From positions 1 through 45,841 of the IMG/VR virus record IMGVR_UViG_3300034159_000028: 45,841 nt of DNA. One strand, written 5' to 3'. The translations under genes were made by a program, and so were the position numbers. This document shows positions 2,051-41,593 of this stretch, piece by piece (position 1 is the stretch's first letter; each line of letters opens with the position of its first letter). The stretch is from a virus. Below the pieces are notes generated by a model that saw nothing but the letters and a program-made list of their open reading frames with translations, did no database searches and was not told where the DNA came from.

Positions 2051-2401
2051 ATGAAGATAAAACCTTTCATTCCCGTCTCCGAACAGATGTGTACGCTCAA
2101 ACGACATTCCTGGAGTGTAGCGCGTTTGTTTCAGCTGTCCAAGGAACTCCCCGTGATGGACGTTCCGCTGGAGCACTTGAACCTTTACATCGTGTATGAG
2201 AAGCTGACCTTGCGCGAAATGGTCATGCACATAAAGGCCGTGGCCGACGCAGACCTTTCCTTCCCGATTATTCTTGATGAAGACGGAGAACTCATGGACG
2301 GATGCCACCGAATTATGAGAGCTCTTCTCGAAGGCGCGCCTACAATCAAGGCTGTCCGCTTTGAATCAAATCCCCCTCCGTGCCAAATTAAAGATATTTA
2401 A
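2051..2401 (+). CDS. ParB/sulfiredoxin-fold protein
   Basis: A 116-residue protein whose C-terminal half has the ParB-like pattern: a strand (SFPIILDEDGELMDG) followed by CHRIMRALLEG, matching the G(x)HR box seen in ParB/Srx-type nuclease folds. It has no obvious DNA-binding helix-turn-helix. It stands directly before a ParB-methyltransferase fusion, which suggests a joint role in DNA marking or genome handling. The ATG follows the palindrome at 2013-2042. Confidence 0.65.
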   Translation: MKIKPFIPVSEQMCTLKRHSWSVARLFQLSKELPVMDVPLEHLNLYIVYEKLTLREMVMHIKAVADADLSFPIILDEDGELMDGCHRIMRALLEGAPTIKAVRFESNPPPCQIKDI

Positions 2402-2411
2402 GGACTCTCTC

Positions 2412-3752
2412 ATGACAAGAAAACTCGCCTCAACCGCCTCAATCAAGATCGCCCCTGATCGTCAACGCAAACACTTCGACCCCGCCAAGCTCCACGAATT
2501 CGGTGACGCCGTGGAAGCACAAGGGCTACTTAACGCAATTGTTTTAAGGATTGTTGGAGATGACTACTACCTCGTCGCCGGAGAACGAAGACTCCGTACC
2601 ACCAAAGACCTTCACGCCCTCGGGCGTACTTACTCCTACGATGGAGAGGTGGTTCCTCTTGGATTTATCCCGTACACGCTCCTCTCCGACCTCGATCCCC
2701 TCGCGGCGGAAGAAGCTGAACTCTCCGAAAACATCAACCGGGAAGACCTCACGTGGCAAGAACGCGCCGCGGCCCACGCAAGACTCTCCGCCCTCCGAGC
2801 TAAGCAAGCAACCGTCGCAGGCCAAGCTCCCCCGACTGTTGCAGCCCTCGCCGTTGAAGTCCGCGGGTCGAGCGAAGGGGTTAACCAAGAAACCACGCGA
2901 CGGGAGTTGATCGTCGCGAAGCACCTGGATAATCCCGCCGTCCGCGCTGCGAAGTCCGTGGATGAAGCGTTCAAGGTGTTGAAGAAAGAGGAAGCGCAAG
3001 CGAAGAACCAGGCACTTGGCGTGAGTGTTGGACGGAACTTTACGGCGAATGTGCACCAGTTAATCAACGCGAATTCCCTCGAGTGGATGCAGTTGGCACC
3101 CGACGCTCAGTTCGACTGCATCCTCACCGACCCTCCCTACGGCATGAACGCAGATGAGTTCGGGGACTCCGGTGGCCTCGCTGCGGGCGGCCACGGCTAC
3201 GAAGACTCCGCTGCGAACTTCCTCAAGATCCTGGAAGTCCTCGCTCCCGAGTCCTACCGCCTCGCCAAGGGCCAAGCGCACCTGTACTGCTTCTGCGACA
3301 TTGATTGGTTCCATACTATGAAGACTGCATTCTCCGCCGCAGGCTGGAACGTCTTTCGTACTCCGTGGTTCTGGTATAAGAAGGCCGGAATGCGTGCACC
3401 TTGGCCGGAGTGGGGTCCGCAGCGGAAGTACGAAACGATTCTCTACGCGGTGAAGGGGAAGCGTCCAGTGCTCAAGATGCTCGGGGACGTGCTGGAGTAT
3501 CCCGCCGACGCGAACCTTGGCCACGCAGCGCAGAAGCCGGTGGCCCTGTACGCCGACTTGCTCTCCCGGACGTGCCTCCCTGGCCAGCGCGTTCTCGACG
3601 CGTTCTGTGGCAGCGGCCCAATCTTCGCGGCAGCGCAGGAGCTGAAGGTAATCGCCACCGGGGTGGAGATGGATACAGCTTCTTATGGAATAGCAGTGCA
3701 GCGGATTCAGCACCTGAAGACTTCGTCGGACGACTTACTTGAAGGGATTTGA
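2412..3752 (+). CDS. ParB-like domain fused to DNA methyltransferase
   Basis: A 446-residue fusion. Residues about 5-130 are ParB-like: LNAIVLRI, LVAGERRLR and ENINREDLTWQERA, the classic box II and following helix. Residues about 215-440 are an N6-adenine or N4-cytosine methyltransferase of the beta order. The catalytic DPPYGM is at 240-245 before the AdoMet-binding FCGSGP at 398-403, and HAAQKP is near 371. Such fusions are common in phages and probably protect DNA from host restriction. The ATG at 2412 avoids the long overlap required by an upstream start. Target specificity cannot be read from sequence. Confidence 0.9.
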   Translation: MTRKLASTASIKIAPDRQRKHFDPAKLHEFGDAVEAQGLLNAIVLRIVGDDYYLVAGERRLRTTKDLHALGRTYSYDGEVVPLGFIPYTLLSDLDPLAAEEAELSENINREDLTWQERAAAHARLSALRAKQATVAGQAPPTVAALAVEVRGSSEGVNQETTRRELIVAKHLDNPAVRAAKSVDEAFKVLKKEEAQAKNQALGVSVGRNFTANVHQLINANSLEWMQLAPDAQFDCILTDPPYGMNADEFGDSGGLAAGGHGYEDSAANFLKILEVLAPESYRLAKGQAHLYCFCDIDWFHTMKTAFSAAGWNVFRTPWFWYKKAGMRAPWPEWGPQRKYETILYAVKGKRPVLKMLGDVLEYPADANLGHAAQKPVALYADLLSRTCLPGQRVLDAFCGSGPIFAAAQELKVIATGVEMDTASYGIAVQRIQHLKTSSDDLLEGI

Positions 3753-4272: not shown

Positions 4273-4720
4273 GTCTCGCTGGGATTTTTGGGGGCGTGTA
4301 AGTAAAGCGGGCTATAACGAATGCTGGGAATGGCAAGGGGCTAAGTCTGCGTCAGGCCACGGCCGCGTCATGGCGGAGGGAAAAATTTGGTACACGCACC
4401 GACTTGCTTATGAGTTCTCAAAGGGTACTTTACCTGCGTGGAGCTTTGACGCAGAGGTACAGCACAGCTGTAATAATCCTGCTTGTTGTAATCCCTTACA
4501 TCTTTGGCTAGGAACACGCAAAGATAACATGAAAACGGCAGGGGAGCAGGGCAAGTTATCGCGTAAAGGTTGCGCAAATGGAAACAGTAAGCTATCGGAT
4601 GAAGCTATTAAAGCTATACGAAGTGACCCAAGAACTTCAAGAGTGATAGGAGCAGACTATGGAATATCGCATCGGCAAGTTCTCAACATTCGTAACGGAA
4701 TTAACTGGAGTGTTACATGA
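4259..4720 (+). CDS. HNH homing endonuclease (HNH_3 type)
   Basis: A 153-residue protein. The HNH_3 core is clear: NECWEWQGAK near residue 20, then VQHSCNNPACCNPLHLWLGT (about 70-89) followed by RKDNM. The C-terminal part (DEAIKAIRSDP, IGADYGISHRQVLNIRNG) looks like a helix-turn-helix DNA-binding region as in group I intron and free-standing homing enzymes. It overlaps the polymerase start (ATGA at 4717) and is flanked upstream by a relic polymerase 5' end. The gene is more AT-rich than the core genome, consistent with mobility. GGGAGG precedes the start. Confidence 0.9.
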   Translation: MPARKSRWDFWGRVSKAGYNECWEWQGAKSASGHGRVMAEGKIWYTHRLAYEFSKGTLPAWSFDAEVQHSCNNPACCNPLHLWLGTRKDNMKTAGEQGKLSRKGCANGNSKLSDEAIKAIRSDPRTSRVIGADYGISHRQVLNIRNGINWSVT

Positions 4721-7179
4721 TAATAAATGGCGAGGGACCTATACCAGCACGTATATTAATCGTAGGGGAATTCCCCGGTGCCCAGGACCGAGTTCCTTTT
4801 GACGGGGCAGCCGGGATGGAGTTGAATCGGATGCTTCATGAGGTGGGCATCATGCGGAGCGAATGCTACACCACCTACGCTTGTAAAGAGCGCCCACCCG
4901 GCGGGCAGATCGGGGAGTTCGTAGCGCTGAAGAAGAAGGACATTGGTCCATACCATCAAGCTATCCGCGGCCTGTACTGCACGCCCCAGATCCATCACGG
5001 CATCCGCTCCTTGGAAACGGAGATTGAGATGGTCCAGCCGAACATCATCATAGCTATGGGCAACCTGGCCATGTGGGCGCTGACGGGTCACTGGAGCGTG
5101 CTGAAGTGGAGGGGATCACAGCTGATGACGGATAAGGGCGTGAAGGTAATTCCGACTCTCACCCCTGGCGCAGTCATACGCGAGTGGCCGCAACGTGCAG
5201 TCGTCCTCTCCGACCTCCGTCGTGTTAAGCGCCACATGACTACGCGCGGGTACTCCAACAAGCCGGAGTGGAGATTCATCGTCCGTCCCAGCTTCGATAC
5301 AACAATAAACACCTTGGGGAAGTTGCTTATCCAGGCCGAGACTTCCGCCGACCCCCTCTGGATCGACTTCGACATTGAAACTCGCAGTGGGCACATCGAC
5401 TGCATCGGGCTCAGCTGGACGCTCGAGGACGCCATCTGCATTCCCTTCATGGCTCGCGGGAAGCCCCTTGGCTACTGGGAAGCCGAGCAAGAAACCCACA
5501 TCGTCTACCGCCTGTATAAGCTCCTTACCCACAAACGCGTGAAGGTACGCTGGCAGAACGGTCTCTACGATGCGCAGTACGTTCACCGGCACTGGCACTT
5601 CATCCCTCACGGCGGCCAGGACACTATGATCACACAGCACAGCGTCTTCTGCGCGCTGCCGAAGGGCCTGGCCTTCATCGCCTCCATGTACGCTGATTGG
5701 TATGTGTACTGGAAAGACGAAGGGAAGATCGCCTCCGACGTACCGGAAGAGCAACGCTGGACATACAACCTCCAGGATTGCGTCTACACGCGGGAGTCCG
5801 GGGAGGTCCTGCAAATTACTGCAGAAGCAATGAAGCTCAAGGAGGTCGACTACCATCAGCAGAAGCTCTTCTACCCAGTGCTCAACGCAATGATCCGAGG
5901 CGTTCGTATCCGCCCGGAGGTCAAAGCTCAAATGGTCCTTGACATTCAGGAAGAGCTCTCCCATCGCGAAGCTTTCCTCCACAACATTCTTGGCCACTCG
6001 ATCAATCCCGGATCATCCAAGCAAATGCAGGCCCTCTTCTACGACGACTTGCAGCAACCCGTGATATACCAGCGCAAAGTCGTCCAGGGTCGCACCGTCA
6101 TGGCGCCAACCTGCAACGATGAAGCGCTCACCAAGCTCGCGGCCAAGGAACCTTTAATCAAACCCATCTGTAACTGCATCGCGGACATTCGTACCTTACA
6201 CAAGTTCCTCAACGACTTCGTCATGATGCCCCTGGACGAAGACGGCCGGATGCGTTGCTCATTCAACATTGCTGGAGACGCTGGTGGAAAATCTGCACCT
6301 TACTCATACCGACTCTCGTCGTCCAAAAACCCTTTCGGAAGTGGAGGAAATCTGCAGACCATACCTTCGGAGAAATCTAAGTCCAGCGGTAAGGCAGCTG
6401 CTCGTGGATCTATGGACTTCACCCTCCCTAACATACGAGCAATGTATGGCCCAGACCCAGGCTTTACTTTCTTCGACATGGACCTTGACCGAGCCGACCT
6501 CCAAATTGTAGTGAGGGAAGCGGGGGAGCCCGACTGGATCGCCGCCATGAAGTCCGGCGTGGATATGCACTTGATGAATGCTTTCATGATCGCGAAGAAG
6601 CCGATGCCTCCACTGGAGGAACTGGTTGAGTCCCATCCGCGCTATGCAGATCACAGAATGCCGCTGAAGCATGCACGTGAGTTTGCCAAGGTGTTCTGCC
6701 ATGCGACGAACTACGGAGGTGGCGCGAAGACAGTTGCGGCTCACACAGGCAAGTCTGTACACGAGATCGACCAAGCGCAGAAGTACTGGTTCTCCGCGCA
6801 CCCGGGTATCCATCAGTGGCACCAACGGACTTTCGAGCAGATCAACAAGTACCGCTACGTAGAAAACAAATGGGGGTATAGATGGTATATATTCGACCGG
6901 CTCGAGGCACTGCTTCCTGAAGCACTAGCCTGGGTTCCTCAGTCAACCGTGGGGATTCTGATAAATCGCATCTGGACTTCCTTCTACGAGAACATCCCCG
7001 AGGTGCAAGTGTTACTCCAAGTACATGATAGTTTGGCCGGGCAACTTCCTACTCACAGGGCCTCCGTCCTAATTCCTCTCATGGAGAAGTACTCCCGTAT
7101 CGAGATTCCTTACGAAGTTCCGTTGATCATTCCAACGGGAGTTAAGACTTCGACCATATCCTGGGGAGATGTAGCGTAA
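4717..7179 (+). CDS. Uracil-DNA glycosylase / family A DNA polymerase fusion
   Basis: An 820-residue fusion. Residues about 10-175 match family 4/5 uracil-DNA glycosylase (GEFPGAQDRVPFDGAAG at 17-33, IIIAMGNLA at 110-118, TLTPGAVIR). Residues about 210-360 carry a 3'-5' exonuclease: WIDFDIET, NGLYDAQYV and YNLQDCVYT. Residues about 530-815 are a family A polymerase: motif A DMDLDRADLQ, motif B RMPLKHAREF...NYGGG, and motif C VHDSL. The usual glutamate of HDE is serine here, and motif A has DLQ for the common ELR. There is no 5'-3' exonuclease domain. It is the genome's replicative polymerase. Coupled by overlap to the next gene. Confidence 0.92.
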   Translation: MIINGEGPIPARILIVGEFPGAQDRVPFDGAAGMELNRMLHEVGIMRSECYTTYACKERPPGGQIGEFVALKKKDIGPYHQAIRGLYCTPQIHHGIRSLETEIEMVQPNIIIAMGNLAMWALTGHWSVLKWRGSQLMTDKGVKVIPTLTPGAVIREWPQRAVVLSDLRRVKRHMTTRGYSNKPEWRFIVRPSFDTTINTLGKLLIQAETSADPLWIDFDIETRSGHIDCIGLSWTLEDAICIPFMARGKPLGYWEAEQETHIVYRLYKLLTHKRVKVRWQNGLYDAQYVHRHWHFIPHGGQDTMITQHSVFCALPKGLAFIASMYADWYVYWKDEGKIASDVPEEQRWTYNLQDCVYTRESGEVLQITAEAMKLKEVDYHQQKLFYPVLNAMIRGVRIRPEVKAQMVLDIQEELSHREAFLHNILGHSINPGSSKQMQALFYDDLQQPVIYQRKVVQGRTVMAPTCNDEALTKLAAKEPLIKPICNCIADIRTLHKFLNDFVMMPLDEDGRMRCSFNIAGDAGGKSAPYSYRLSSSKNPFGSGGNLQTIPSEKSKSSGKAAARGSMDFTLPNIRAMYGPDPGFTFFDMDLDRADLQIVVREAGEPDWIAAMKSGVDMHLMNAFMIAKKPMPPLEELVESHPRYADHRMPLKHAREFAKVFCHATNYGGGAKTVAAHTGKSVHEIDQAQKYWFSAHPGIHQWHQRTFEQINKYRYVENKWGYRWYIFDRLEALLPEALAWVPQSTVGILINRIWTSFYENIPEVQVLLQVHDSLAGQLPTHRASVLIPLMEKYSRIEIPYEVPLIIPTGVKTSTISWGDVA

Positions 7180-11004: not shown

Positions 11005-11313
11005 TTAGCGCAAACCAAGATCAAGACCAGCTGTGGCGCAGCCAGCAATTGCGAGCCCCGCAACCGCCTGCCGCCCTTCGATCGAGCAAGTCGGGCGAAA
11101 GTGATCAGCAGGCATCGGTTGCGTCCACGGAGGCGTGATAACGTCCGGCACTGCCCGTACGAAGTCTTGTGGCTGCCGGGGCTCCCAGTGCTCGAGGCAA
11201 ACGAAGTACCCTTGCCAGTTCTTTTTAAGGTCGGAGGCCTTACGCTTGCGTCCGCACTCAAAACAAGTGGCGTTCCAATTACCAAGGTCTAAGAAATCTG
11301 CGCGTCCAGTCAT
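11005..11313 (-). CDS. Zinc-ribbon phage protein of the tail region
   Basis: A 102-residue protein with CFECGRKRKASDLKKNW followed by YFVCLEHWEPRQPQDFVR, giving a CxxC...CxxH metal site, and PPWTQP near residue 62. This is a recurrent small protein next to tail and internal-protein genes in podoviruses and siphoviruses of Proteobacteria; its exact role is not established. Its start overlaps the stop of the large internal virion protein. Confidence 0.7.
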   Translation of the reverse strand: MTGRADFLDLGNWNATCFECGRKRKASDLKKNWQGYFVCLEHWEPRQPQDFVRAVPDVITPPWTQPMPADHFRPTCSIEGRQAVAGLAIAGCATAGLDLGLR

Positions 11314-14300
11314 TGTGTACTCCTTGCTTTAAGTGCCGCCTTGCGCTTACGTAATTCATCCCGTTGGAGACGCTTTAGCTTAAGCGCCGGGTTACGAGCT
11401 TCCAGTGCGTTCCGGCGATCCAAGCGCTCCTGGCTGGCCTTGGACTGCGCGGCCTTTTCGTTCCCCCCAAGCTCCCTGTTGTAGATCGCCCGGCCAGCTA
11501 GCGGAACCAGCGGAACCAGCTTCTTCGGATTGCTCATCCCTTCGCCCAGGGTCTGCGCCACACTGTATGCTGGAGGAGTTAGCATAGCCCCAGCAGCGGA
11601 GATCAGCTCTTTCCCCGGAGCCGTGCTGCGTGGGACCTTGTCCAGTGTATAGCGACTAAGGCCAAAGTTCTGCGCGAAGTTGGAGATGTAATCAATCTTA
11701 TCCAGCTCAAGCGGACGGCCCATAATCCAATTCTTTACAGCATTCGCAGGCACCGCTACGAGGGACAGGGCTGTTGCGTACAGGGCCAAGTTCTTCAGCC
11801 CAATCGCCACCTTCTTCGGGTCACCTGTCTTGATCTTATCCCAAGAGTCCCGGCGGATCACGTCCGCTTGGGTGAGCATGAATTGCTTCAGGTGGTATGC
11901 CATCCGCGCGTCTGGGTGAGCGTTGTAGAGCTGCGGCGCTTCCGAGCGGGAAGTCGGGCGAACGTCGGACAGTTCCTGGTACAGTAACGAATCGACTAGG
12001 GGTGTGCGGCTTGTCCGAGTGGAAGCTTGCAACTCCTTCAACAGTTGCGGGAAGTCCGGGCCATAGTCGGCTGCCCACTTTTCTGTCAGCTTGGCAATAC
12101 CCGCCGGCGTCTCGACTAGCCGCTTGTTCTTCAGGAAACTCGCGGTCAGATTCTGCGAGATGCCTACCTGATCAAGTGTGGCCAGCAGATTCACTTTGAG
12201 CAAAGTACTGAGCAGCTGCCCCGTCGGCCGCTTGCCAATCACCTCTTCAATCACGTGATTCGCCAGACCAAACTCCGAGGGCTTAATCCCCCGGCGCGTA
12301 AGAACCATCCCGAGAGCATCTGCAGCTGGCTTGATTCCGTGGTGGTAAGCCGACAACAGCGCTTCGGAAGTCTGGATGAGGCCGGAACCGACTTGGCCAA
12401 GCAGTGCCGCCCCGCTGAGATTACGCACGTCCTGCAGCCAGGGTTGCGGGGACATTTCCCCTTCGATGAAACGAGCGCGAAGGATGTTCTTGACCTCAAC
12501 TGCTTGCTCCGGCGTCATACGTTTTTCAGTCAACGCTCTATTGACCAGTGCTCCGATAGAATTCTCCACGTTCGTGTACTTGCCGCCGCCAGCTCCCTCA
12601 CTCGTGCGAATGTCCTTGCCGAAGAACTTCGCCGTCTGGATATCCGACACAGCCGCATGACCGTAGTGAATCAGCGCATCTTCCAGCGTGTGGTAGAAAG
12701 GTCGAGTTTCGTCAGTTATGCGCAGACGTCTGCTCTTGGCATAGCCTGGCTGGAAGGAAGTAGCCGGATCGCGCAGGAGGTAGTCGTTCATGAGCAGGGA
12801 GTTTTCCGTTTCCGTCAATTCCCTGCCACGCTCCTTGAGCATCTTCACGTTCGCCTTGTGCAGCATGTTCTGCAACCCTTCCCGCACCGGCGTATCCAGC
12901 GTAGCCATAAGGCCCTTGTAGTCCTTCACCAGTAGCGGGAGGTAGTCGGGTAGACCTTCCTTGAATCGCCCGAAGTCCTTCAGCGTGCTCTCCACACCGC
13001 CGAGGAACTCACGTACCTTCGCGTAACCGGCAGCGAGTTCTGGGTGCTTCTGCACAAGCGCTTTCATGCCCGCACCATCCGCCGCGACATAGGCCCGATC
13101 CAGCGCCATGCGCTCTGGCACGGAAAGCTTTTTCACTGGTTTTGTAAATGCGCTGATAGCATCACTAGCCGCCGAGATCTCCTTCGACGCTGCCATCTCC
13201 ATATCCCGTACACCCCGGCGAAGCTCTGGGTCAATGTGCATCAACCGCGTAGTGCTACGGCCCAGTGCAGAGTCTACCGCTTTCGTGCCAAGGGCAATGC
13301 CGCCCAGGCCAAGGATACCCCCGATGATTGCGCCCTTCTGCGGATCGTCAGCCAGGGCCGCTCCGAGCAGTGCGCCACCTCCGGCCAGCCCAGCTCCCTT
13401 GAGCAAGTCCTGATCCACGCGTCCTGCTTGCAGGTCCTTGTACTCCCGTAGCGATCCTTGCAGATTCTCCTTCGCACGGGAGAACCCCGACCGCACGGTG
13501 CCGATAGGGATATTTAACTTCGCGGCGGTCTCCTCATAGCTCAGTCCTTCCATCTCCAGCGACTCGAAGATAGCGCGTTGGTGTTCAGGGAGTTTATCCA
13601 GCGCAGTCTGCATCCGGCGGCCAAGATCGTTTGTCGCTGCCACATCCTCCGCGGAGCGATACAGCTCAGGATTCTGCTGCATGGTGTACGCTTCCGGCGC
13701 GGAAGTCCCTCCGGTTTCAGGGTCCACCGTCATGGATTCCGTCTGCGGACTCCGCTTGGCACTGTCCCATTTGTTCAGCGCTTCGTTCTTAGCGATCGTG
13801 TGCAGATAGGTGGAGATGGACGAGTCCCCCCGGAAGGCCAGCTCGTTGTCCGCCGGCAGCTTCATTTTCTGAAACGCCTTCTCGTAAGTGCGCTGGACGA
13901 TATCTTCCACCGGGAGTTTACCTTCTCCCTTATCCCAGCTGCTTACAGTACGGAGTAACTGTCTGTGCGTGTCTTCGTAGATCTTCGCCGCGGCCGCTTC
14001 ACCCTCACGCCCGCCTTGGCGGAAAACCTCCAGCAACTTCGGCTCTGGTACGCCCTCGAATTTTCCCTTCAGCATACCCGCAGCTCCCAGTCCCATTAGG
14101 CCTAGTCCAACATCGCTCGCTTTATCCGGGGATAACGCGCTCGGAGATTGATACCAGTTATAAAGCGCCGTACCCGCTACGGCACCAAGGCCCATGAGTC
14201 CGAGCACCTTCAGCAACGCCGGATCAGCGGCACCGCGCTGGAAGTACGGTTTCCCTTCTGCGTTGACGATAGCCTCCTGACCGGGAAGGGGTTTGAGCTG

Positions 14301-15323
14301 GCGAATGGCCTTCGCCTCTTTCGCGGAGATCAACTCCCCCGCACGCAGCTTGGCGATGCCCGACTGTGCGTAGTCCGGAGCTTCCCCCAGTACCGTCGGC
14401 TCTTCTATCCGCACCTTCGGAGTCAGGCCGGGCCCCTGCGGCGCTTCCATCTTCGGCGGTTCCACCAGTCCGCGGACCATGTTATCCCACTGCGCGCTGC
14501 TGCCCACTTCCGGCTCAGCTTTCTTTTTCGCAAACGCTTCATCCAGGGGGTGGCGCTTTGCCAGCGCTTCCTTCACCACAGCGTCAACGGCCTCGGCCTT
14601 CGCGGTTCCTGCCGCCACGTCAGCGATCTGCTTATCCACGGCAGCCTGGGCAATACGCGCCTTCGATTCCCGGATAGCTTGATCAGCAGTCAGCGCTTCC
14701 CCCGTAGCATTCCCGCGAGCCTTCGGCACCTTCCCGAGTCCCTTCACGCCCAGGGAATTAAGCAACGTATCTCGCACGGACTGCATAGTTTCCAGCGAGA
14801 CCAGTCCTCCCGTAGCGGACTCCGCCTTCGTTCCGGCCACATCTGACAACTCCATTCCCTTCGTCATCAGTTCATCAATCTTCGAGCCGCTTGCATCCCG
14901 CTGCAGCCCGAGCGCCGACGTCACCTTGCCCCAGTCCGCATTCACCTGATCCGCGACGGAGCGAGCGTTACGCCCTGCTTGCTTCGCGGGTACGCCCCGG
15001 ACTATGTCACTCACACGAGACGCTGCGTCCATACCCACGCCAGCGATCCCGCCCGGCATCCCTACGAGCATGTTTGTAGCAGCCTTAGCTTCTTGCTCGA
15101 GCTGCTTCGTGCCTTGCTGAAGTGAATTCTCCACGGGAGCCATCACGTCGGAGACTTTACGGTACGCCGTCTTAACCCGCTCCCATAAGGAGGGCGCTGG
15201 AGCCTGCCCGCCCATCTGCTCCCAGCTCACGCCACCTTGCGTAGTCGCCGCGGTGGGGGCTTCCGGCGTCGCAGCACCTAACCCCGTCATCTGTTCCCAG
15301 GAGCTTGTATTACTCGTCGGCAT
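11310..15323 (-). CDS. Large internal virion protein with an embedded RpoE-type ECF sigma factor
   Basis: A 1337-residue protein, the largest in the genome, in the position of podovirus ejection proteins. The N-terminus has two SWEQM repeats. Residues about 428-632 (nucleotides about 13428-14042) form a full ECF sigma unit. Region 2 is EDIVQRTYEKAFQKM, then FRGDSSISTYLHTIAKNEAL. A linker containing NPELYRSAED follows. Region 4 is LDKLPEHQRAIFESL, GLSYEETAAKLNIPIGTVRS and SRAKE. E. coli RpoE has FRGDS, GLSYEE and GTVRS at equivalent places. Glycine-rich hydrophobic segments flank the unit (about 370-420 and 640-685), as in membrane-penetrating ejection proteins. The rest is largely helical. 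Delivery into the host as a sigma factor is inference, supported by six RpoE-like promoters in this genome. Confidence 0.85.
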   Translation of the reverse strand: MPTSNTSSWEQMTGLGAATPEAPTAATTQGGVSWEQMGGQAPAPSLWERVKTAYRKVSDVMAPVENSLQQGTKQLEQEAKAATNMLVGMPGGIAGVGMDAASRVSDIVRGVPAKQAGRNARSVADQVNADWGKVTSALGLQRDASGSKIDELMTKGMELSDVAGTKAESATGGLVSLETMQSVRDTLLNSLGVKGLGKVPKARGNATGEALTADQAIRESKARIAQAAVDKQIADVAAGTAKAEAVDAVVKEALAKRHPLDEAFAKKKAEPEVGSSAQWDNMVRGLVEPPKMEAPQGPGLTPKVRIEEPTVLGEAPDYAQSGIAKLRAGELISAKEAKAIRQLKPLPGQEAIVNAEGKPYFQRGAADPALLKVLGLMGLGAVAGTALYNWYQSPSALSPDKASDVGLGLMGLGAAGMLKGKFEGVPEPKLLEVFRQGGREGEAAAAKIYEDTHRQLLRTVSSWDKGEGKLPVEDIVQRTYEKAFQKMKLPADNELAFRGDSSISTYLHTIAKNEALNKWDSAKRSPQTESMTVDPETGGTSAPEAYTMQQNPELYRSAEDVAATNDLGRRMQTALDKLPEHQRAIFESLEMEGLSYEETAAKLNIPIGTVRSGFSRAKENLQGSLREYKDLQAGRVDQDLLKGAGLAGGGALLGAALADDPQKGAIIGGILGLGGIALGTKAVDSALGRSTTRLMHIDPELRRGVRDMEMAASKEISAASDAISAFTKPVKKLSVPERMALDRAYVAADGAGMKALVQKHPELAAGYAKVREFLGGVESTLKDFGRFKEGLPDYLPLLVKDYKGLMATLDTPVREGLQNMLHKANVKMLKERGRELTETENSLLMNDYLLRDPATSFQPGYAKSRRLRITDETRPFYHTLEDALIHYGHAAVSDIQTAKFFGKDIRTSEGAGGGKYTNVENSIGALVNRALTEKRMTPEQAVEVKNILRARFIEGEMSPQPWLQDVRNLSGAALLGQVGSGLIQTSEALLSAYHHGIKPAADALGMVLTRRGIKPSEFGLANHVIEEVIGKRPTGQLLSTLLKVNLLATLDQVGISQNLTASFLKNKRLVETPAGIAKLTEKWAADYGPDFPQLLKELQASTRTSRTPLVDSLLYQELSDVRPTSRSEAPQLYNAHPDARMAYHLKQFMLTQADVIRRDSWDKIKTGDPKKVAIGLKNLALYATALSLVAVPANAVKNWIMGRPLELDKIDYISNFAQNFGLSRYTLDKVPRSTAPGKELISAAGAMLTPPAYSVAQTLGEGMSNPKKLVPLVPLAGRAIYNRELGGNEKAAQSKASQERLDRRNALEARNPALKLKRLQRDELRKRKAALKARSTQ

Positions 15324-16422
15324 CGTCGTCTCCTTCGCCGGTTAAGTCTTCGTCCGTGGCAGGAGCGCTCGGGGCTGTGTAAGCTGCCTGCACGTGAGGC
15401 CGCCCAATCGGATTCCCCTTCGCATCCAGCCCGATGATGTCGTACTTCACGCCACCAGCTCCCGTGTAAGTCTTTCCAACTTCAACTAAAGCCGGATCAA
15501 GCGGCATGGGCGGAGCCGTCTTCAGCGCAAGAGCTTCCATCCGCGCTTGCGTCAGGGCGGTCTGCGCCTTCTTCAAATCCGCAGCTTCCTGGCTTGTCGC
15601 CCCGCCGTACTTGGCGCGAAGTGTCCGATCTTCCTTCAGCGCGGTTGCCCGTGTCTTAATCAGATCAATCGCTGCGTCCGCCTTGGAAATCTGAGCATTA
15701 TTCAGCCGCCGCTTCGATTCCGAATCCGCCTGCTCCCGTGCGAGGTTGGCACGCTTGATGGAATCCTGGCTTGCCTGTTCAATCGCCCGTAGCACCGGAA
15801 CGTCCGTGCGGTAGTTTCCTGTTAGCTCTTGCGGCAACAGCTTCCGCGTTTGCGGGTCCATCAGTATCGCCGCGTAGTTCGCAGGACTCAGCGCAGCCGA
15901 CCCTGCCACGTTCCCGATCTGCTCAAACTGCGCGATCTGGCCCTTCGTAGCTTCCAGCGAAGCCTTGGAGTTATTTGCCGCCGCTGCCGCTTCCTTCTGA
16001 TGAATGTCGGCAACCTGCTTGCTCAGCCCAGCTGTAGCAGAAGGAGGTAATCTCCCGTTAGAGAATTGCAGCAACCGCTCCAGTGAATCCGCTGCCGAAG
16101 CGCGCATGATGGAGCCGCCGCTCGGCAAGTCCTTCACTGTCATCACCGTTCCCTGGGCCACTCCTGAGTCCGACACCTGCTTCCGTGCATCAGCTTCTGA
16201 CTGCATGAACTGCGACTCCAGATCCGCCATACGTTGCGCTTGCGCGTTCGTCGCTTCCTTCGCGCCCGCCTCCGCCGCGTACAACCGCGCCTGGGCTTGC
16301 TTCGTCTGCAACTCCGCTGGCTGCATCGCGATATCTCCCATCAACCGCTGCGCCTGCAGCCCTTGGTTCTGATAGTCCTGCTTAGCGATGATCCCGTTAG
16401 GGGCTCCGAAAAGTTCAGGCAT
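15310..16422 (-). CDS. Internal virion protein, helical
   Basis: A protein of about 370 residues, alanine- and glutamine-rich with long coiled-coil or helical stretches (TKQAQARLYAAEAGAKEATNA, AREQADSESKRRLNN). It ends in an acidic tail (EDLTGEGDDDADE). I chose the ATG at 16422 because GGGGAG lies 8 bases upstream; an in-frame ATG at 16443 has no ribosome-binding site and would lengthen the overlap with the preceding gene. By position it corresponds to podovirus internal or ejection proteins that form the trans-envelope channel. Confidence 0.75.
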   Translation of the reverse strand: MPELFGAPNGIIAKQDYQNQGLQAQRLMGDIAMQPAELQTKQAQARLYAAEAGAKEATNAQAQRMADLESQFMQSEADARKQVSDSGVAQGTVMTVKDLPSGGSIMRASAADSLERLLQFSNGRLPPSATAGLSKQVADIHQKEAAAAANNSKASLEATKGQIAQFEQIGNVAGSAALSPANYAAILMDPQTRKLLPQELTGNYRTDVPVLRAIEQASQDSIKRANLAREQADSESKRRLNNAQISKADAAIDLIKTRATALKEDRTLRAKYGGATSQEAADLKKAQTALTQARMEALALKTAPPMPLDPALVEVGKTYTGAGGVKYDIIGLDAKGNPIGRPHVQAAYTAPSAPATDEDLTGEGDDDADE

Positions 16423-17662
16423 TTGAAGCACTCCCCAAGCCATTCTTAATCATGTAGGATTGCAACCACGCGGGCATCTGCGTACCGGAGGACGTGCCGA
16501 AACCAAGCGACCCGAGACTCGCCGACGCCAGGGAGTTCGCTGAATTATTCCCAGTCAACGCCGTAGACACTCCGCTGTTTGTCGCCCCGCTCAACGTAGC
16601 GATCCGGTCATTCTGGTATTTCAGAGCTGCCTGCGCCGCTGCCGATGCTGCGTAGCCTCCGGGCTGCTGTGACCCAGAGCGAGCTGCTGCTTTCATCGCG
16701 GCTTCATACCCGGCATCCCCGGTAAAGTCTCCATTCACCACCTTCTGCAACTGGGCGCTGGCAGCTGCGGAAGGGGCAGAGGCTACGCTGGCCAAGTCCC
16801 GCTGCGCCCCCGCTTGCTTCATGCCGTAAATCCCCGACGCCAGTGACATAGCCGTGTCAGTCCAGTTACGTTCTGGACTACTTGTTGGCGCGAATCCCGT
16901 GGAGCCTGCCGCAACTCGCCCAAGCGTATCATTCACAGCACTGCCGGACCCATACGCACCGTAGCTAGGATTACTCGCGGAAGCTGTACGCAAGGCATTC
17001 CCGAGAACGTTGGAACCAATACTAGCTCCCTGTGAACCCGCCAGCGCCCCGCCGAGTTGTCCCCCGACCAGCGCTCCGCCAACACCAAGACCGGTGGAAA
17101 GAGGGTCACGCGAAGTTGCTACGTTGTAGCCCGTATTCGCGATCTGCCCGGCCGTTCCGCCAAACTTACCAAGTAGTCCCTGAATCGCTGCTTTAACCGG
17201 GTCTTGCGAATTCAGCGCACTTGCGCCCGCATTAATCAGCGAGGTCACCGGATTCATATTCGCAAAGAAGCTCATTATCTTCTGGGCCTTCGAGCCCCAG
17301 AAGCCACCTTCATCTTGCGAGGAGAACCCGTTCTTGTTAGGATCAAAACCCAGCGAGGAAGGGCTCTGCGATGGGACCGCGGTTAAGCCTACCCCTGAAG
17401 CATCTCCGTAGCCCGCATCGTTAAGATTCCAGAGGGACGACAAGCTGTAGTCCGTCGGAGTGTAGCTATCGTTCCAGGAGCCTAAACTACTCCCAAGCCC
17501 GCCTCCAATGTCGTAGCCGCTTGGAGCCGTCAGACCCGGCGACGTACCGCTGAAGCCATAACCATCAGTCCCTGATTGATCCGGCGCGGACAGCCCAGGA
17601 CTTGTTCCGTTTCCAAAACTGTAATTACCGCCGGAGAAACCCCCGCCTAATTCGTCTGCCAT
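16415..17662 (-). CDS. Glycine/serine-rich internal virion protein
   Basis: A 415-residue protein of strongly biased composition. The N-terminal 110 residues are Gly/Ser/Tyr-rich with repeats such as GTSPGLSAPDQSG and GTSPGLTAPSG. A central glycine-rich hydrophobic region follows (GLGVGGALVGGQLGGALAGSQ, about 190-210) that could insert into membranes. The C-terminal third is Ala/Ser-rich and helical (ASAPSAAASAQLQKVVNG). It is probably one of three ejection proteins together with the two genes downstream. No enzymatic motif is seen. Confidence 0.7.
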   Translation of the reverse strand: MADELGGGFSGGNYSFGNGTSPGLSAPDQSGTDGYGFSGTSPGLTAPSGYDIGGGLGSSLGSWNDSYTPTDYSLSSLWNLNDAGYGDASGVGLTAVPSQSPSSLGFDPNKNGFSSQDEGGFWGSKAQKIMSFFANMNPVTSLINAGASALNSQDPVKAAIQGLLGKFGGTAGQIANTGYNVATSRDPLSTGLGVGGALVGGQLGGALAGSQGASIGSNVLGNALRTASASNPSYGAYGSGSAVNDTLGRVAAGSTGFAPTSSPERNWTDTAMSLASGIYGMKQAGAQRDLASVASAPSAAASAQLQKVVNGDFTGDAGYEAAMKAAARSGSQQPGGYAASAAAQAALKYQNDRIATLSGATNSGVSTALTGNNSANSLASASLGSLGFGTSSGTQMPAWLQSYMIKNGLGSASNA

Positions 17663-17671
17663 AGAAGCTCC

Positions 17672-17971
17672 TTATTTGTAAGTTCCAGTTTTAAACCAAG
17701 CTGCCACGCCTGCAATCGTACCTATGATCAGAATGAGCGGTTTCAGCACCCCGCCGAGCCAGCCAAGCACGCGGAAGAATGAACGGCCCAGACTGACGAT
17801 TTCCAGCACTTCCGCGGTGTTACGACTATTAGTCTCAAGCATTTGTTTCAGTGTCACGAGTTCCTCCGCATGGCTGTTAACCCTGCGCTCCAAGATATAG
17901 ATTGTTTCACAATGCGGTCCGCAGAGATCTGCATCACTGGTAACATTAGTCGCGCGTCTGTCGTTGTCCAT
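17672..17971 (-). CDS. Small coiled-coil protein with C-terminal membrane helix
   Basis: A 99-residue protein. Residues about 22-55 form a helix (YILERRVNSHAEELVTLKQML). A hydrophobic C-terminal segment (LGGVLKPLILIIGTIAGVAAWF) is a likely membrane anchor. The start is preceded by GAGGCTCAAA, the same ribosome-binding leader used by several plus-arm genes and the only minus-strand copy I found. It could be an auxiliary holin or a tail-assembly membrane protein. Confidence 0.65.
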   Translation of the reverse strand: MDNDRRATNVTSDADLCGPHCETIYILERRVNSHAEELVTLKQMLETNSRNTAEVLEIVSLGRSFFRVLGWLGGVLKPLILIIGTIAGVAAWFKTGTYK

Positions 17972-17984
17972 TTTGAGCCTCAGG

Positions 17985-23806: not shown

Positions 23807-24676
23807 TCATTCTCCAAAATATAACTCAGCGTACCGATTACGCCAATCTTCAACCTTTGCGTACTTCTTACCCGGACCGACGAAGCGCTTGGAGTCTTGG
23901 TCACAAGCAGCCCGTGCTTCCGAAGGCATGGCAGCGTAGCCCTTTCCGCGCGGGGCGGAACTTCCCGCACTACCCCCGCGGCCAGCTCCACCTTCAACCT
24001 TGTCCTCCCGCGGAGCGAGGGCGCCGCCGAGTTCTTTCTGCATCTCCCGCGTTACGAGTTCGAAGAATCCGCGGCCCTGGGAGGTTTCGCCCTGGGAGCG
24101 AAGGTCATCAGCTATGGCGAGAGCCAAGGCAGTCTTACGCTTGTCAGTCCCAAACCAAGGATTCTCGCGATTCCACTCCACCAGTTCGGGAGGAGGGACG
24201 AAAGGTTGCTGCTGGACTTCGGCCGGTTTCACCGGAGTCGGCACCGTTGGAGTAACCGTAGTCGCTTCCCGCAGTTCGATCAACTGCTCCGTCAGCTCTG
24301 CCACGCCTTGGTGATCCCCAGCTTCCGAGGCCGCCGCCAACTGCGCCCGGACTTCCTTCCGCGCAGTCTCCACCGCCTTCTGTGTAGCGACAGTGTGGCG
24401 TTCCTCCATCTGCGCGATAGCGTTCTGCGCCTGGGCCAGTGCCTGGGCAATCTGCCCCGACTGTGCCTTCACCGCGTCTAGCTCCGTATGCAGCCGCTTG
24501 TTCTGTTCGCGGACAATCGGAAGCACTTCATTCCCGCGACGGATGTATTCATCTGCGTCGACGAAACGCTCTGGGTCAGCGCGAAAACGCGAAGGCGGAA
24601 TCCAGCCCATTGCCTCAGCTTCCCGCTGAACTTCCGGAGTTGCCTGACTTTCTACAAGTTGTTCTGCGTTAGGCAT
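23807..24676 (-). CDS. Scaffolding protein
   Basis: A 289-residue acidic, charged protein with a long coiled-coil centre (about 60-165: EQNKRLHTELDAVKAQ, EERHTVATQKAVETARKEV). The C-terminal part (KYAKVEDWRNRYAELYFGE) fits a capsid-binding tail. ATG 24676 follows a strong GAGGAGG. Position between the portal and capsid genes supports assembly-scaffold function. Confidence 0.8.
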   Translation of the reverse strand: MPNAEQLVESQATPEVQREAEAMGWIPPSRFRADPERFVDADEYIRRGNEVLPIVREQNKRLHTELDAVKAQSGQIAQALAQAQNAIAQMEERHTVATQKAVETARKEVRAQLAAASEAGDHQGVAELTEQLIELREATTVTPTVPTPVKPAEVQQQPFVPPPELVEWNRENPWFGTDKRKTALALAIADDLRSQGETSQGRGFFELVTREMQKELGGALAPREDKVEGGAGRGGSAGSSAPRGKGYAAMPSEARAACDQDSKRFVGPGKKYAKVEDWRNRYAELYFGE

Positions 24677-24998
24677 TTTCCACCTCCTCATGCGTGATTG
24701 CGCAGAAGATATCCCGGTCATTCACCAGACGATAGGTCTGGCCATCCGACGGTCCCTTGGCCACGAACCCGGCGAACTTCGTCACCAGCACGCGATCACC
24801 CACCTTCGCCCGCGGGCAAGGCTCATCATGCCAAGCGCTCGGACCGACTTCCACCACCACCGCGCGGTTGTCCACCATATTCATCCGCCCCTGGACAGAT
24901 TCCGGCAGCACGATCTGCGCTCCCCGGCGTTCAGGTTCGTACAGTTTAATCAACACAGCCACGCCCAACGGCGCGAGCCCCGAAGTATTTTCATTCAT
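24669..24998 (-). CDS. GroES-like co-chaperonin
   Basis: A 109-residue protein matching the Cpn10 fold: LAPLGVAVLIKLYEPERRGAQIVLPES, a mobile-loop-like segment after it, then VVVEVGP, KVGDRVLVTKFAG and YRLVNDRDIFCAI. T4 gp31 is the functional precedent: a phage co-chaperonin that lets host GroEL fold the capsid protein. Position directly upstream of scaffold and capsid fits. No phage GroEL is present. Confidence 0.78.
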   Translation of the reverse strand: MNENTSGLAPLGVAVLIKLYEPERRGAQIVLPESVQGRMNMVDNRAVVVEVGPSAWHDEPCPRAKVGDRVLVTKFAGFVAKGPSDGQTYRLVNDRDIFCAITHEEVENA

Positions 24999-31772: not shown

Positions 31773-32193
31773 AGTTTACTCCGTTAATCTCTGCTAATAA
31801 TTCAGCTGTTTGGCCCTGAGCTTCAACTAGCGTATTTTGCAAATACGTGATGCCCTTAGCTAAGCGTTCTGCGCTATCTTGCGCAAAGCCAATCATAGAA
31901 TTGCAACTGCCGCACAGTAAGCCTCTAACAACTCCAGTCGCGTGACAATGATCTACAAATAAAGCCGCAACCGTTTTACTGCCGCGTGAAGCTTCTCCAC
32001 ATATTGCACAAACTCCGCCTTGCTTGGCGAGAAGTCTTTGGTAAGCTGGCACGGTCAGCCCGTAATGAAACTCTAAACGCTCTTGCCGGGTTTGCTCTGG
32101 ACTTACCTTGGATCTATCCCAGAGCGCGGAAATCCTACCTTGCATTTCGGCAATGGCTATATTTGAAGGTTTTGCCCTAGATTCCTGTTTCAT
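31756..32193 (-). CDS. HNH endonuclease VII-type homing endonuclease upstream of TerS
   Basis: A 145-residue protein related to the one at 27299-27745: GGVCAICGEASRG, LFVDHCHATGVVRGLLCGSCNSMIGFAQD. Cys pairs and the DHCHATG..RGLLC core are conserved. It is first in the minus arm. The -10 element of an RpoE-type promoter ends only 5 bases before this ATG, so the transcript would start at or near the start codon (leaderless); a start at M17 has no ribosome-binding site. AT-rich base use suggests recent acquisition. Confidence 0.82.
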   Translation of the reverse strand: MKQESRAKPSNIAIAEMQGRISALWDRSKVSPEQTRQERLEFHYGLTVPAYQRLLAKQGGVCAICGEASRGSKTVAALFVDHCHATGVVRGLLCGSCNSMIGFAQDSAERLAKGITYLQNTLVEAQGQTAELLAEINGVNYDRFG

Positions 32194-32198
32194 AATCG

Positions 32199-32226
32199 TT
32201 AGACGCTTTTCCTAAAAAAAAGTTCC
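32199..32226 (-). promoter_or_regulatory. RpoE-type promoter of the structural operon
   Basis: On the minus strand: GGAACTT (32226-32220), 15 bases, GTCTAA (32204-32199). This is an exact match to the consensus shared by five plus-strand sites. It is the only such promoter I found on the minus strand and sits at the head of all 26 or so structural and lysis genes. The predicted start site coincides with the first codon of the HNH gene. Confidence 0.85.
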
Positions 32227-32508: not shown

Positions 32509-32536
32509 GGAACTAATGGGACGGACCATTGTCCAA
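32509..32536 (+). promoter_or_regulatory. RpoE-type promoter of the first early gene, with overlapping operator
   Basis: GGAACTA (32509-32515), 15 bases, GTCCAA (32531-32536). The -10 lies inside a perfect palindrome CCATTGTCCAATGG (32526-32539), a likely operator. The predicted start is near 32542 and the leader ends in GAGGCTCAACC before ATG 32587. Confidence 0.8.
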
Positions 32537-32586
32537 TGGATACCAGACGTGATCTGGGTTATCAATCAACCATATGAGGCTCAACC

Positions 32587-33021
32587 ATGAAGAAGATTAT
32601 CAATGCGGCAACGCGGACCGTGACGTTCACGTTTGATGGGTGGAAGGACAAGGACGGTACGGTCATTGACCCGACGCTGGCTCCGGTTACCCTAGACTTG
32701 AACAAGGTTAGTGCGGCTAACATCACATATGCCACGTTGCATGGCTTCGCGGCGCGGGTGGGGGATAATGCAGCGATTGCGAAAACGGCTGAGAATGGGT
32801 TCCGCGTGACGGAGGGGATGCGCCGGGCGGAGGTCGATGCCATGGTGCGATTCTATGAGAACGCGGCCAACGCGGACTGGAACATGCGGGTTGCGGCGGC
32901 CCCGAAGGTGGCGTTCAATCCGGCCATTCAAGCCATCGCGGCCAAGCTCGGGAAGTCCTACGACGAAGCCCTCGCGTGGTATAACGCGAAGCTGATGGCG
33001 GAGCTGGATGGGATGGTGTGA
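32587..33021 (+). CDS. Early protein, unknown (144 aa)
   Basis: A 144-residue protein, first gene of the plus arm, with its own ECF-type promoter and GAGGCTCAA leader. The N-terminal part has strands (RTVTFTFDGWKDKDG) followed by DLNKVSAANITYATLHGFAARVGDNAAIAKT, and a C-terminal helix (IAAKLGKSYDEALAWYNAKLMAEL). It has no recognised motif. An early host-takeover function is possible from position only. Confidence 0.75.
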   Translation: MKKIINAATRTVTFTFDGWKDKDGTVIDPTLAPVTLDLNKVSAANITYATLHGFAARVGDNAAIAKTAENGFRVTEGMRRAEVDAMVRFYENAANADWNMRVAAAPKVAFNPAIQAIAAKLGKSYDEALAWYNAKLMAELDGMV

Positions 33022-33232: not shown

Positions 33233-33266
33233 CCACCGAGCTATGTTGCTCGAATAGGAGGCTCAA

Positions 33267-33362
33267 ATGGAGTATTTCGTAGAACCCTGGGTATAGTGGG
33301 TTGTCGGCGCGCTGGTCTTGATCTGGCTGATCGCGGAGTTCGGTGAAGGAGGTACGCCATGA
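33267..33362 (+). pseudogene. Small membrane protein gene interrupted by an in-frame TAG
   Basis: ATG 33267 follows GGAGGCTCAA directly. The frame gives MEYFVEPWV, then TAG (33294-33296), then WVVGALVLIWLIAEFGEGGTP and a TGA at 33360-33362. The segment after the amber codon is a plausible membrane helix, and the final TGA overlaps the ATG of the next gene. So the full frame looks like a real gene either broken or read through. TAG is used as a normal stop elsewhere (for example 1798-1800), arguing against genome-wide recoding. Confidence 0.6.
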
Positions 33363-33739: not shown

Positions 33740-33767
33740 GGAACTTTGAGGTAAGTCCTCGGTCTAA
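33740..33767 (+). promoter_or_regulatory. RpoE-type promoter of the HTH gene
   Basis: GGAACTT (33740-33746), 15 bases, GTCTAA (33762-33767). The spacer contains a GAGG...CCTC hairpin, and GGCCGGATTGGCC follows the -10. It drives the cluster from 33816. Confidence 0.85.
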
Positions 33768-34768: not shown

Positions 34769-34796
34769 GGAACTTTTCGGCGCAGATTTTGTCTAA
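34769..34796 (+). promoter_or_regulatory. RpoE-type promoter before the 34852 gene
   Basis: GGAACTT (34769-34775), 15 bases, GTCTAA (34791-34796). A palindrome copy begins at the -10, at the same distance as in the promoter at 41566-41593, so these are two copies of one promoter-operator cassette. Confidence 0.88.
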
Positions 34797-34830: not shown

Positions 34831-34851
34831 CAATCAACCAAGGCTCAAATC

Positions 34852-35022
34852 ATGAACAAAGAAAAAAATCCTTCCGCTAACGGCGCGTGTAACTGGGAGA
34901 ATCGCGTCCCAGCTCCGTGGAGTAAAGCTCCACAACCAAGCGTCCGTCCAAGCGCGCCTACGGGACTGCGTTACCACCAAGCCAAGCTGCGGGAAGCTGG
35001 CGTGCAAGCGAAGGCGGTGTGA
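34852..35022 (+). CDS. Small hypothetical protein (56 aa)
   Basis: ATG 34852 with the leader AGGCTCAAATC. The 56-residue product is Pro- and Lys-rich and probably disordered (NKEKNPSANGACNWENRV, APQPSVRPSAPTG), with a final helix (YHQAKLREAGVQAK). It is the first gene after the promoter cassette at 34769. Confidence 0.55.
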   Translation: MNKEKNPSANGACNWENRVPAPWSKAPQPSVRPSAPTGLRYHQAKLREAGVQAKAV

Positions 35023-35023: not shown

Positions 35024-35227
35024 ATGCGAGAATCTAACGCTACCTTAGCGCAAGCTGCCTGGCGTATGAAGCCTACAGCTGCTGATACTTGGCTGCTTTA
35101 CGGGATTTCTTTCGGGGCACTAGCCGTGCTGGAGCGCTATCTAGGCAAGGGGGATTTTCTCCTTGACGCGGACGCAACGCAGCAGTTCACTTTCCTTCTT
35201 CTTGTTCTGGAAGCAGAAGCATCATGA
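35024..35227 (+). CDS. Small hypothetical protein (67 aa)
   Basis: A 67-residue protein starting just after the preceding stop. It has a hydrophobic centre (WLLYGISFGALAVLERYL) and C-terminal segment (FTFLLLVLEAEAS), so it may be membrane-associated. It is coupled to the DenV-like gene by an overlap of four bases. Confidence 0.55.
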   Translation: MRESNATLAQAAWRMKPTAADTWLLYGISFGALAVLERYLGKGDFLLDADATQQFTFLLLVLEAEAS

Positions 35228-35592
35228 CCCGCATCAACTGCGTTCCTCCTTCCGAACTCTCCGACGCGCACCTGGGGGCGGAGTACCGGGAACTCCCGCG
35301 AGTGTTTGCGCTGGCGGAAGCAGCGTGGCTGCGTGGGGAGGCTACAGACAAGTACCCCAGCGAGTACGTCCTCGGCCCGGGTCATGTGAAGTTCTTCTAC
35401 ACGCGTCTGTGGTATCTGTATCAGCGATTCCACCAAATCGTGCTCGAGTGCCAACGGCGCGGGAGAAAAACAACGTTCACCCAAGCTCCTGCCACGGGTC
35501 TTCCTGATAGGTACTATCAGAACTGGACTCCTACTCCCGAAGCTCTCGCGCTGAATCGTCAGCGCATCACGGAGCGTTCACCGAAGCAATAG
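35224..35592 (+). CDS. denV: Pyrimidine dimer DNA glycosylase (T4 endonuclease V-like)
   Basis: A 122-residue protein closely following the T4 DenV pattern: TRINCVPPSELSDAHL at the start, then GAEYRELPRVF, YVLGPGHVKFFYTRLWYL and ECQRRGRKTTF. T2, the catalytic amine after methionine removal, and E23, the catalytic glutamate, are present, as are R22 and R26. It should cut DNA at UV-induced pyrimidine dimers. Together with the uracil glycosylase on the polymerase, the phage carries two base-repair activities. The C-terminus is a little shorter than T4's. Confidence 0.88.
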   Translation: MTRINCVPPSELSDAHLGAEYRELPRVFALAEAAWLRGEATDKYPSEYVLGPGHVKFFYTRLWYLYQRFHQIVLECQRRGRKTTFTQAPATGLPDRYYQNWTPTPEALALNRQRITERSPKQ

Positions 35593-36646: not shown

Positions 36647-37104
36647 CCCAAGAATCCTGGATCGCTGAATTCTACCCCACTCCTGCGTGGAAGGTCGACA
36701 AGCCTGACGCGCTCGCGCACTCTCTCCGCAAGTGGCGAGGGTTGACGAAGGAGTCCTACGCGAAGCACTTCCCTTGCGCGCCGAAGAATCCTCCAATCCC
36801 CGTCGACAACAGCACGTGTGCGCTGTGTAAGCAACATTTCGACACCAGGCAGGAAGAGCTTAAAGTCGTAGTATTGTGCACTGCTTGCCCGCTCTCCCAG
36901 TCGCGCTACGGCACTCCTTGCGACTCCCGCATGCCGCATGAGCACACTTCCCCTTGGTCCGAGTGGAAGTCCCGGCAGAACCCGCTCCCTATGATCGCCG
37001 CGTTGGAGAAGGCAGTCCGCTTCGTCGAGGCTTCGCGCGTAATTGCCGTAGCATCGAAAATAATTACAAATCCTGCGGAACTAAATCCCAGAGAACCCGT
37101 CTAA
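36643..37104 (+). CDS. Cysteine-rich hypothetical protein (153 aa)
   Basis: A 153-residue protein. STCALCKQHF and VLCTACPLSQSRYGTPC give a zinc-finger-like set of cysteines (about residues 59-92). A WSEWKSRQNPLPMIAALEKAVRF segment follows. The 3' end overlaps the ECF-type promoter at 37077-37104, so the stop codon and -10 element share sequence. Confidence 0.65.
   Translation: MTQESWIAEFYPTPAWKVDKPDALAHSLRKWRGLTKESYAKHFPCAPKNPPIPVDNSTCALCKQHFDTRQEELKVVVLCTACPLSQSRYGTPCDSRMPHEHTSPWSEWKSRQNPLPMIAALEKAVRFVEASRVIAVASKIITNPAELNPREPV
37077..37104 (+). promoter_or_regulatory. RpoE-type promoter before the 37134 gene
   Basis: GGAACTA (37077-37083), 15 bases, GTCTAA (37099-37104). The promoter lies inside the end of the upstream gene. 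No palindrome follows; the leader is short, with AGGCTCAACC before ATG 37134. Confidence 0.82.
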
Positions 37105-37133
37105 TCATTTCACCAAACGAAAGGCTCAACCGC

Positions 37134-41534: not shown

Positions 41535-41567
41535 CCACCCCTGCGAAAATAAATTCGTAAGGGGTGG
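41535..41567 (+). terminator. Hairpin at the end of the Rap1a-like gene
   Basis: CCACCCCT and GCGAA pair with TTCGT and AAGGGGTGG around AATAAA. The hairpin's 3' side overlaps the -35 element of the next promoter. There is no U run, so it is either a factor-dependent terminator or an RNA-stabilising end. Confidence 0.5.
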
Positions 41568-41593
41568 AACTTTCGCGCGAAGCGCGTGTCTAA
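41566..41593 (+). promoter_or_regulatory. RpoE-type promoter before the 41653 gene
   Basis: GGAACTT (41566-41572), 15 bases, GTCTAA (41588-41593). It is followed by a palindrome, an AACCAACC stretch and GAGGCTCAAACC before ATG 41653: the same sequence of elements and spacing as at 34769-34852. Confidence 0.88.

Follow-up and report, generated by a model that had tools for sequence, protein, structure and literature searches.

The locus described here raises the question of why a giant protein of the virion type should contain a complete sigma factor, and whether that factor might enter the host cell together with the phage genome. We analyzed the whole stretch of viral DNA (45,841 nucleotides of IMG/VR record IMGVR_UViG_3300034159_000028, hereafter the window), for which a first-pass annotation made from the sequence alone had proposed that an RpoE-type ECF sigma factor embedded in an internal virion protein is packaged, injected and used to switch the host RNA polymerase to phage promoters. 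The parts of that interpretation that sequence analysis can reach were supported, and suggest that a transcription switch of the phage's own enters the cell with the particle.

The open reading frame in question (11310..15323, minus strand) encodes 1337 residues, and the annotation had placed a complete RpoE-type ECF sigma factor at residues 428-632 (13428..14042, minus strand). The coordinates were right, and the assignment was borne out by profile and PDB matches. Sigma70_r4_2 of Pfam was found in the full protein at an E-value of 1.5e-13, and the NCBIfam sigma70-ECF superfamily model TIGR02937 scored 66.6 bits in the full protein (range 66.6-71.8; cut-off 42.9). The Sigma70_r2 match of Pfam fell below its 24-bit cut-off in the full protein (3e-4) and rose above it when the domain alone was scanned (7e-6, 26.1 bits). 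The top PDB sequence match was E. coli RpoE (1or7, 5.5e-13). The score against the RpoE equivalog model TIGR02939 was 75.6 bits, far under the cut-off of 236.15, so the domain is not an RpoE orthologue. The likeness to E. coli RpoE also held in structure: an AlphaFold model of the sigma domain (23 sequences; mean pLDDT 77.7, with the relative placement of the two halves uncertain) gave E. coli sigma-E as its best Foldseek match (1or7, 8e-7), and the top matches were nearly all sigma factors. Modeled region 2 (residues 449-524 by the Pfam match range; 13752..13979, minus strand) matched sigma-E bound to the -10 strand (4lup) with a Z of 12.2 and an rmsd of 2.2 over 90 residues, and region 4 (residues 570-621 by the Pfam match; 13461..13616, minus strand) matched sigma-E bound to the -35 element (2h27) with a Z of 10.8 and an rmsd of 1.9 over 69 residues.

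The FRGDS, GLSYEE and GTVRS segments singled out in the annotation were all found in the domain, and the asparagine of the -10-reading helix proved to be N513, which aligns with RpoE N80. In our residue table, F497 of region 2 aligns with RpoE F64, and R611, S612 and R616 of region 4 align with RpoE R171, S172 and R176. These RpoE residues are promoter-reading (DNA-contact) residues; the aligned positions are largely retained in the embedded sigma factors, those of L132 and L153 excepted. Residues 428-632 are a complete ECF (group IV) sigma factor, made of regions 2 and 4 only and with the fold of E. coli RpoE.

The sigma domain is also the part of the protein under the strongest purifying selection. 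Comparison with a full-length homologue on contig L001 (93% identical), at a synonymous divergence of about 1 per site, yielded dN/dS ratios of 0.011 for the sigma domain, 0.031 for the C-terminal part and 0.073 for the first 380 residues, with zero replacements in region 4 and in the linker. Among remoter relatives, identity was 51-58% in the sigma domain compared to 35-39% in the C-terminal module for most of the first set.

The glycine-rich hydrophobic segments said to bracket the sigma unit were confirmed in the translation at about residues 361-427 (14043..14243, minus strand), on the 5' side of the domain, and 633-690 (13254..13427, minus strand), past it. The same kind of unit is repeated at other module junctions in homologous proteins, in which it gives weak glycine-zipper Pfam matches. 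The remainder of the protein is a putative ejection module (residues 640-1337; 11313..13406, minus strand) that we recognized from alignments A4/A6, Foldseek and VIA-align, and its model had a pLDDT of 75 and a pTM of 0.71. A Foldseek search of viral predicted structures matched this model to the internal virion protein of Vibrio phage VP2 (E 3e-6), with further matches to internal virion protein D, structural proteins and large polyvalent proteins; the PDB search gave no match under E 0.1. In VIA-align the module was closest to the phiM1 ejectosome (Z 7.1), the T7 core (6.6 and 5.9) and phage E1004 (5.3), the next and unrelated match being at 4.6. These Z values are modest, and a Z of 7 can be reached by a helical protein in VIA-align without kinship; what we find telling is that a single family, the T7-type core/ejection proteins, fills all four top places. 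In its modeled form, this part of the protein is similar to internal virion proteins of the T7-type gp16 / internal virion protein D kind.

The placement of the gene had been likened to that of podovirus ejection proteins, and gene order as well as the resemblance of the C-terminal module to internal virion proteins agrees with this. The sigma-carrying gene occupies a gp16-like slot towards the end of the structural genes, behind two proteins without family match that stand in the place of internal virion proteins: a 415-aa glycine-rich protein (16415..17662, minus strand) and a 377-aa protein (15310..16443, minus strand), by position probably the first and the second internal virion protein. 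Tail-spike-like and lysozyme-like genes come after the sigma-carrying gene in the series. From structural resemblance and gene order, we infer that the host protein of the sigma domain is of the ejection type and would be present in the virion and injected. Zincin peptidases have been proposed to process polyvalent proteins (Iyer et al., PMC5512222); no protease or peptidase domain was seen in the 1337-aa protein of the window.

We looked for the same insertion in related ejection-type proteins by searching IMG/VR contigs, at first via the capsid protein of related phages and then with the C-terminal module and the sigma domain. Twenty-one further contigs carried the sigma domain within a giant ORF (22 contigs in all with the window), the ORFs being about 1340-2465 aa long, some of them cut by contig ends. 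About 60 more contigs carried the C-terminal module without the sigma domain, in ORFs mostly of 930-1110 aa. The homologues have the polyvalent layout, with several unlike domains including PcfJ and LPD23, and the protein of the window has the sigma domain as its only recognized cargo. A PcfJ-like cargo (PF14284, Pfam) was found in the proteins of G004 and G002, and the L209 protein contains LPD23 ('large polyvalent protein associated domain') and an HExxH-like motif. The sigma domain lies ahead of other cargo in L120 (residues 511-692 of 2465), and in L196/L197 and L209 it is joined, by our reading, to an unlike C-terminal module of the P0010 type. When the presence of sigma was mapped as a label on the tree of the C-terminal module, it required 3 changes, compared to a mean of 9.7 when shuffled. 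Judged from these sequences, the sigma domain is apparently an optional cargo on a modular chassis, alongside PcfJ-like and LPD cargo. A second cargo block between linkers, with a conserved HVVE(I/L)QSDL motif and no Pfam match, was observed in L110, L112 and L113 and also in the sigma-less G019. Stand-alone ECF sigma ORFs were seen on other viral contigs (L210:7821-8447, L211:7962-8561 and L212:7524-8435).

The close relatives are all uncultured. Searches of annotated phages with the protein of the window gave no sequence homologue except through the sigma domain itself, and those with the homologous proteins of the other contigs gave nothing or cargo matches only. No close DNA relative of the window was found in the phage collection, and the sole match of the C-terminal module among bacterial genomes was one metagenomic contig labeled Verrucomicrobiales.

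The annotation had noted no separate anti-sigma or RNA polymerase gene, and our scans agree. PHROG scans of about 30 window proteins (small ORFs in part) detected no RNA polymerase, anti-sigma or second sigma. T7-type RNA polymerase, sought with a T7-type rather than an N4-specific model (PF00940), was absent from the window and eight relatives, and the control phage was positive. The ejection proteins covered by Pfam or PHROG scans had no polymerase match. A search of the window for further sigma genes gave only a sub-threshold HTH match. The window does encode an 820-aa ORF that joins an N-terminal uracil-DNA glycosylase domain to a family A DNA polymerase (4717-7179, plus strand), a ParB-like domain fused to a DNA methyltransferase in a single ORF (2361-3752, plus strand), an RtcB-type RNA ligase (38799-40019, plus strand), an endonuclease V-type repair enzyme (35224-35592, plus strand) and a GroES-like co-chaperonin (24669-24998, minus strand).

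The RpoE promoter consensus of enterobacteria has the -35 element GGAACTTTT and the -10 element GTCAAA (PMC1804206), and the -35 box GGAACTT is also given in PMC8103513. The first such site, GGAACTTTGAGGTAAGTCCTCGGTCTAA at 33740, was spotted in the divergent intergenic region at 31.7-34.6 kb. The pattern GGAAC-N17..19-TCTRA occurs 5 times in the window compared to 0.39 expected, and none of 100 shuffles reached 5. When all 5+5 spaced pairs were counted de novo and without bias, GGAAC-N18-TCTAA ranked first in each of the window, G004, G052 and G056.

Six RpoE-type sites were found in the window, all of them outside the structural series; they may be the six candidate promoters to which the annotation referred. 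The GGAACTT-N15-GTCTAA site at 32199..32226 (minus strand) stands at the head of the leftward structural series, with the endonuclease VII ATG 5 nt past the -10 element. The other sites are on the plus strand. A variant, GGAACTA-N15-GTCCAA (32509..32536), is 50 bp ahead of the gene at 32587, and the similar genes of G052, G064 and G071 likewise have sites in front. GGAACTT-N15-GTCTAA recurs at 33740..33767, 48 bp ahead of the HTH-protein gene at 33816 (with a site before similar genes in G004 and G056), at 34769..34796, 55 bp ahead of a 56-aa gene (similar gene in G052), and at 41566..41593, 59 bp ahead of a 199-aa gene (similar genes in G004, G022, G056 and G064). GGAACTA-N15-GTCTAA is found at 37077..37104, 29 bp ahead of a 75-aa gene (similar genes in G052 and G064). 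Across phages, the sites lie mostly in the early/replication half, 0-78 bp before the start codon, and are kept at similar genes; G004, G056, G006, G002 and G052 have an extra site just past the ejection-protein gene, ahead of the next structural gene. Sigma-70-like promoters showed no excess in the window at 31.7-45.8 kb, with 6 found and 5.9 expected.

Two further observations concern the starts of these genes. A shared leader, AGGCTCAA, stands directly before ATG codons in 7 copies, compared to 0.21 expected (32577-32589, 33259-33269, 34841-34854, 37122-37136, 38279-38292 and 41642-41655 on the plus strand; 17969-17980 on the minus strand), and 4 of the 7 copies are downstream of RpoE-type sites. 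At some sites the -10 element ends 0-5 nt ahead of an ATG, namely at 32193-32226 in the window, 29739 in G004, 31772 in G056, 33169 and 34553 in G022 and 26332 in G064, and such elements would yield leaderless mRNAs.

We compared the number of sites in phages with and without the embedded sigma factor. By weighted scan, the seven sigma-bearing phages with a large contig have 6, 6, 6, 9, 6, 5 and 6 sites, with 0.2-0.8 expected in each, and 11 sigma-less relatives have 0-2; a first pass with the strict pattern gave the same contrast. The difference between the sigma phages and the others, with G071 and G058 taken as negatives, had a Mann-Whitney p of 3e-4, a value that is not a count of independent events since promoters and sigma share ancestry. 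Two phages depart from the general pattern. In the embedded sigma factors of G058 (L132) and L153, the positions equivalent to the RpoE residues are altered (F64 to Y, N80 to K, R171 to A, S172 to K and R176 to T), and the number of sites in G058, 2, is close to background. A count this low is what one would expect if the sites are read by the embedded sigma rather than by that of the host. Searching G058 for motifs de novo brought up no clear promoter pair. A palindromic TGTCCCAA(A/T)TTGGGACA-like element was observed in this phage (L267-L269), with 9-mers occurring 8-10 times compared to 0.3 expected, and may be a regulator site, in a phage whose embedded sigma has diverged. The second phage, G071 (L136), has 5 RpoE-type sites and no embedded sigma, and no other sigma was detected on its 38-kb contig. 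On the tree of the C-terminal module, the ejection protein of G071 falls inside the sigma clade, and secondary loss of sigma is therefore likely; its sites are perhaps read by something else, such as host sigma-E, or by a sigma in the missing part of the genome. A strict confinement of the promoters to phages with the embedded sigma is ruled out by G071. For the most part, the promoter sites go together with an embedded sigma factor that has kept its DNA-reading residues.

In the reading we propose, the giant protein of 1337 aa belongs to the polyvalent ejection proteins of podoviruses and has an ECF sigma factor of RpoE-like specificity as its cargo. The protein would be made late, packaged in the head and delivered along with the phage DNA. 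Once in the cytoplasm, the sigma domain, cleaved free or still part of the chain, would bind the host core RNA polymerase and direct it to the GGAACTT-N15-GTCTAA promoters that precede early genes and open the leftward structural series. Packaging, injection, core binding, promoter use and timing are steps that we infer, and we think it likely that an injected sigma factor steers the host core RNA polymerase to the phage promoters. The sigma would be needed already at entry, because the one sigma gene that we found is among the last of the structural series, a series itself headed by the RpoE-type site at 32199, and because the early region is without sigma-70-like promoters above chance. On balance we also favor, with less assurance, the fuller proposal that the virion sigma runs phage transcription from the first minutes and that most units, including the sigma's own series, start at RpoE-type promoters.

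Other explanations were weighed against the injected sigma factor. Host sigma-E, which infection could induce through envelope stress, might read the sites, with the embedded sigma auxiliary or otherwise employed. The sites do fit the enterobacterial sigma-E consensus (PMC1804206), and G071 retains them with no sigma gene detected, which leaves room for a role of host sigma-E; we nevertheless consider this explanation unlikely, given the sites at or near background in the 11 sigma-less relatives and in G058, whose reading residues are lost, and the extreme constraint on a sigma domain that keeps its DNA-contact residues. We give little credence to a sigma that acts only in the producing cell, late in infection, its location in a virion protein being incidental. 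Most sites are in the early/replication half, the structural series starts at such a site, so that the sigma would be required before its own gene is read, and nearly all phages found by sequence keep the sigma in a giant ejection-type protein; these points speak against a late-only role, for which the position of the gene towards the end of the structural genes and the site just after it in the five phages named above could be cited.

It is very improbable, in our judgement, that the domain binds core polymerase without specific initiation, either as an inhibitor of host transcription or as a tether by which the polymerase pulls the genome in. Neither role requires the conserved promoter-reading residues of both regions or the matching promoter-like sites, even though injected proteins that act on the host polymerase do exist, such as T4 Alt (discussed in PMC5512222). 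A chance similarity, an assembly chimera or a decaying relic can be given virtually no weight: the sub-threshold score of region 2 in the full-length Pfam scan might hint at one of these, and E-values of 1e-13 to 1e-26, recurrence in 22 contigs and the dN/dS of 0.011 refute them.

Several known systems come close to the injected sigma factor that we favor. The N4 virion RNA polymerase (gp50) of Schitoviridae is injected, lies within a giant ejection protein and starts early transcription (PMC12633501). The window, read from its genes alone, likewise has a putative giant ejection protein with a transcription component; unlike N4, which injects a single-subunit polymerase, it would supply a sigma only, which would need the host core polymerase. 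Polyvalent proteins, which occur in phages and conjugative elements, are giant and multi-domain and are predicted to enter the cell with the DNA (Iyer et al. 2017, PMC5512222), and the LPD23 and PcfJ-like domains found beside sigma in homologues are a point of likeness; the main text of that paper does not contain the word 'sigma' and describes no sigma domain. Nor is sigma mentioned in a review devoted to ejection proteins (PMC8954989). The position of the gene as the last internal-virion-protein gene and the T7-type core proteins as best structural matches recall T7-type gp16, but gp16 bears a lysozyme domain and the protein of the window a sigma factor. E. coli RpoE is alike in fold, in the signature residues of regions 2 and 4 and in promoter consensus, and differs in that the sigma described here is embedded in a virion-type protein and has no anti-sigma partner that we could see. 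The sigma of phage 7-11/phiEco32 is stand-alone and related to bacterial sigma (PMC8948821), and the ECF-type genes of crAss-like phages are separate. Such stand-alone phage sigmas are separate genes, with no virion delivery described in the literature we found, whereas the sigma of the window is embedded. A search of open-licence papers found no report of a virion-borne or injected sigma factor. To our knowledge, it would be the first injected sigma factor.

Injection of the specificity subunit alone would be a further and cheaper route to transcription takeover at entry, beside the N4 polymerase and T4 Alt, an injected enzyme that modifies the host polymerase. The sigma is accompanied by a definite set of promoters that can be put to the test, and the family, in which one chassis bears sigma, PcfJ-like or LPD cargo, is a natural modular swap series for testing ejection-protein function in the cell. 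If the proposal is true, each generation of particles carries the sigma factor that boots the next infection.
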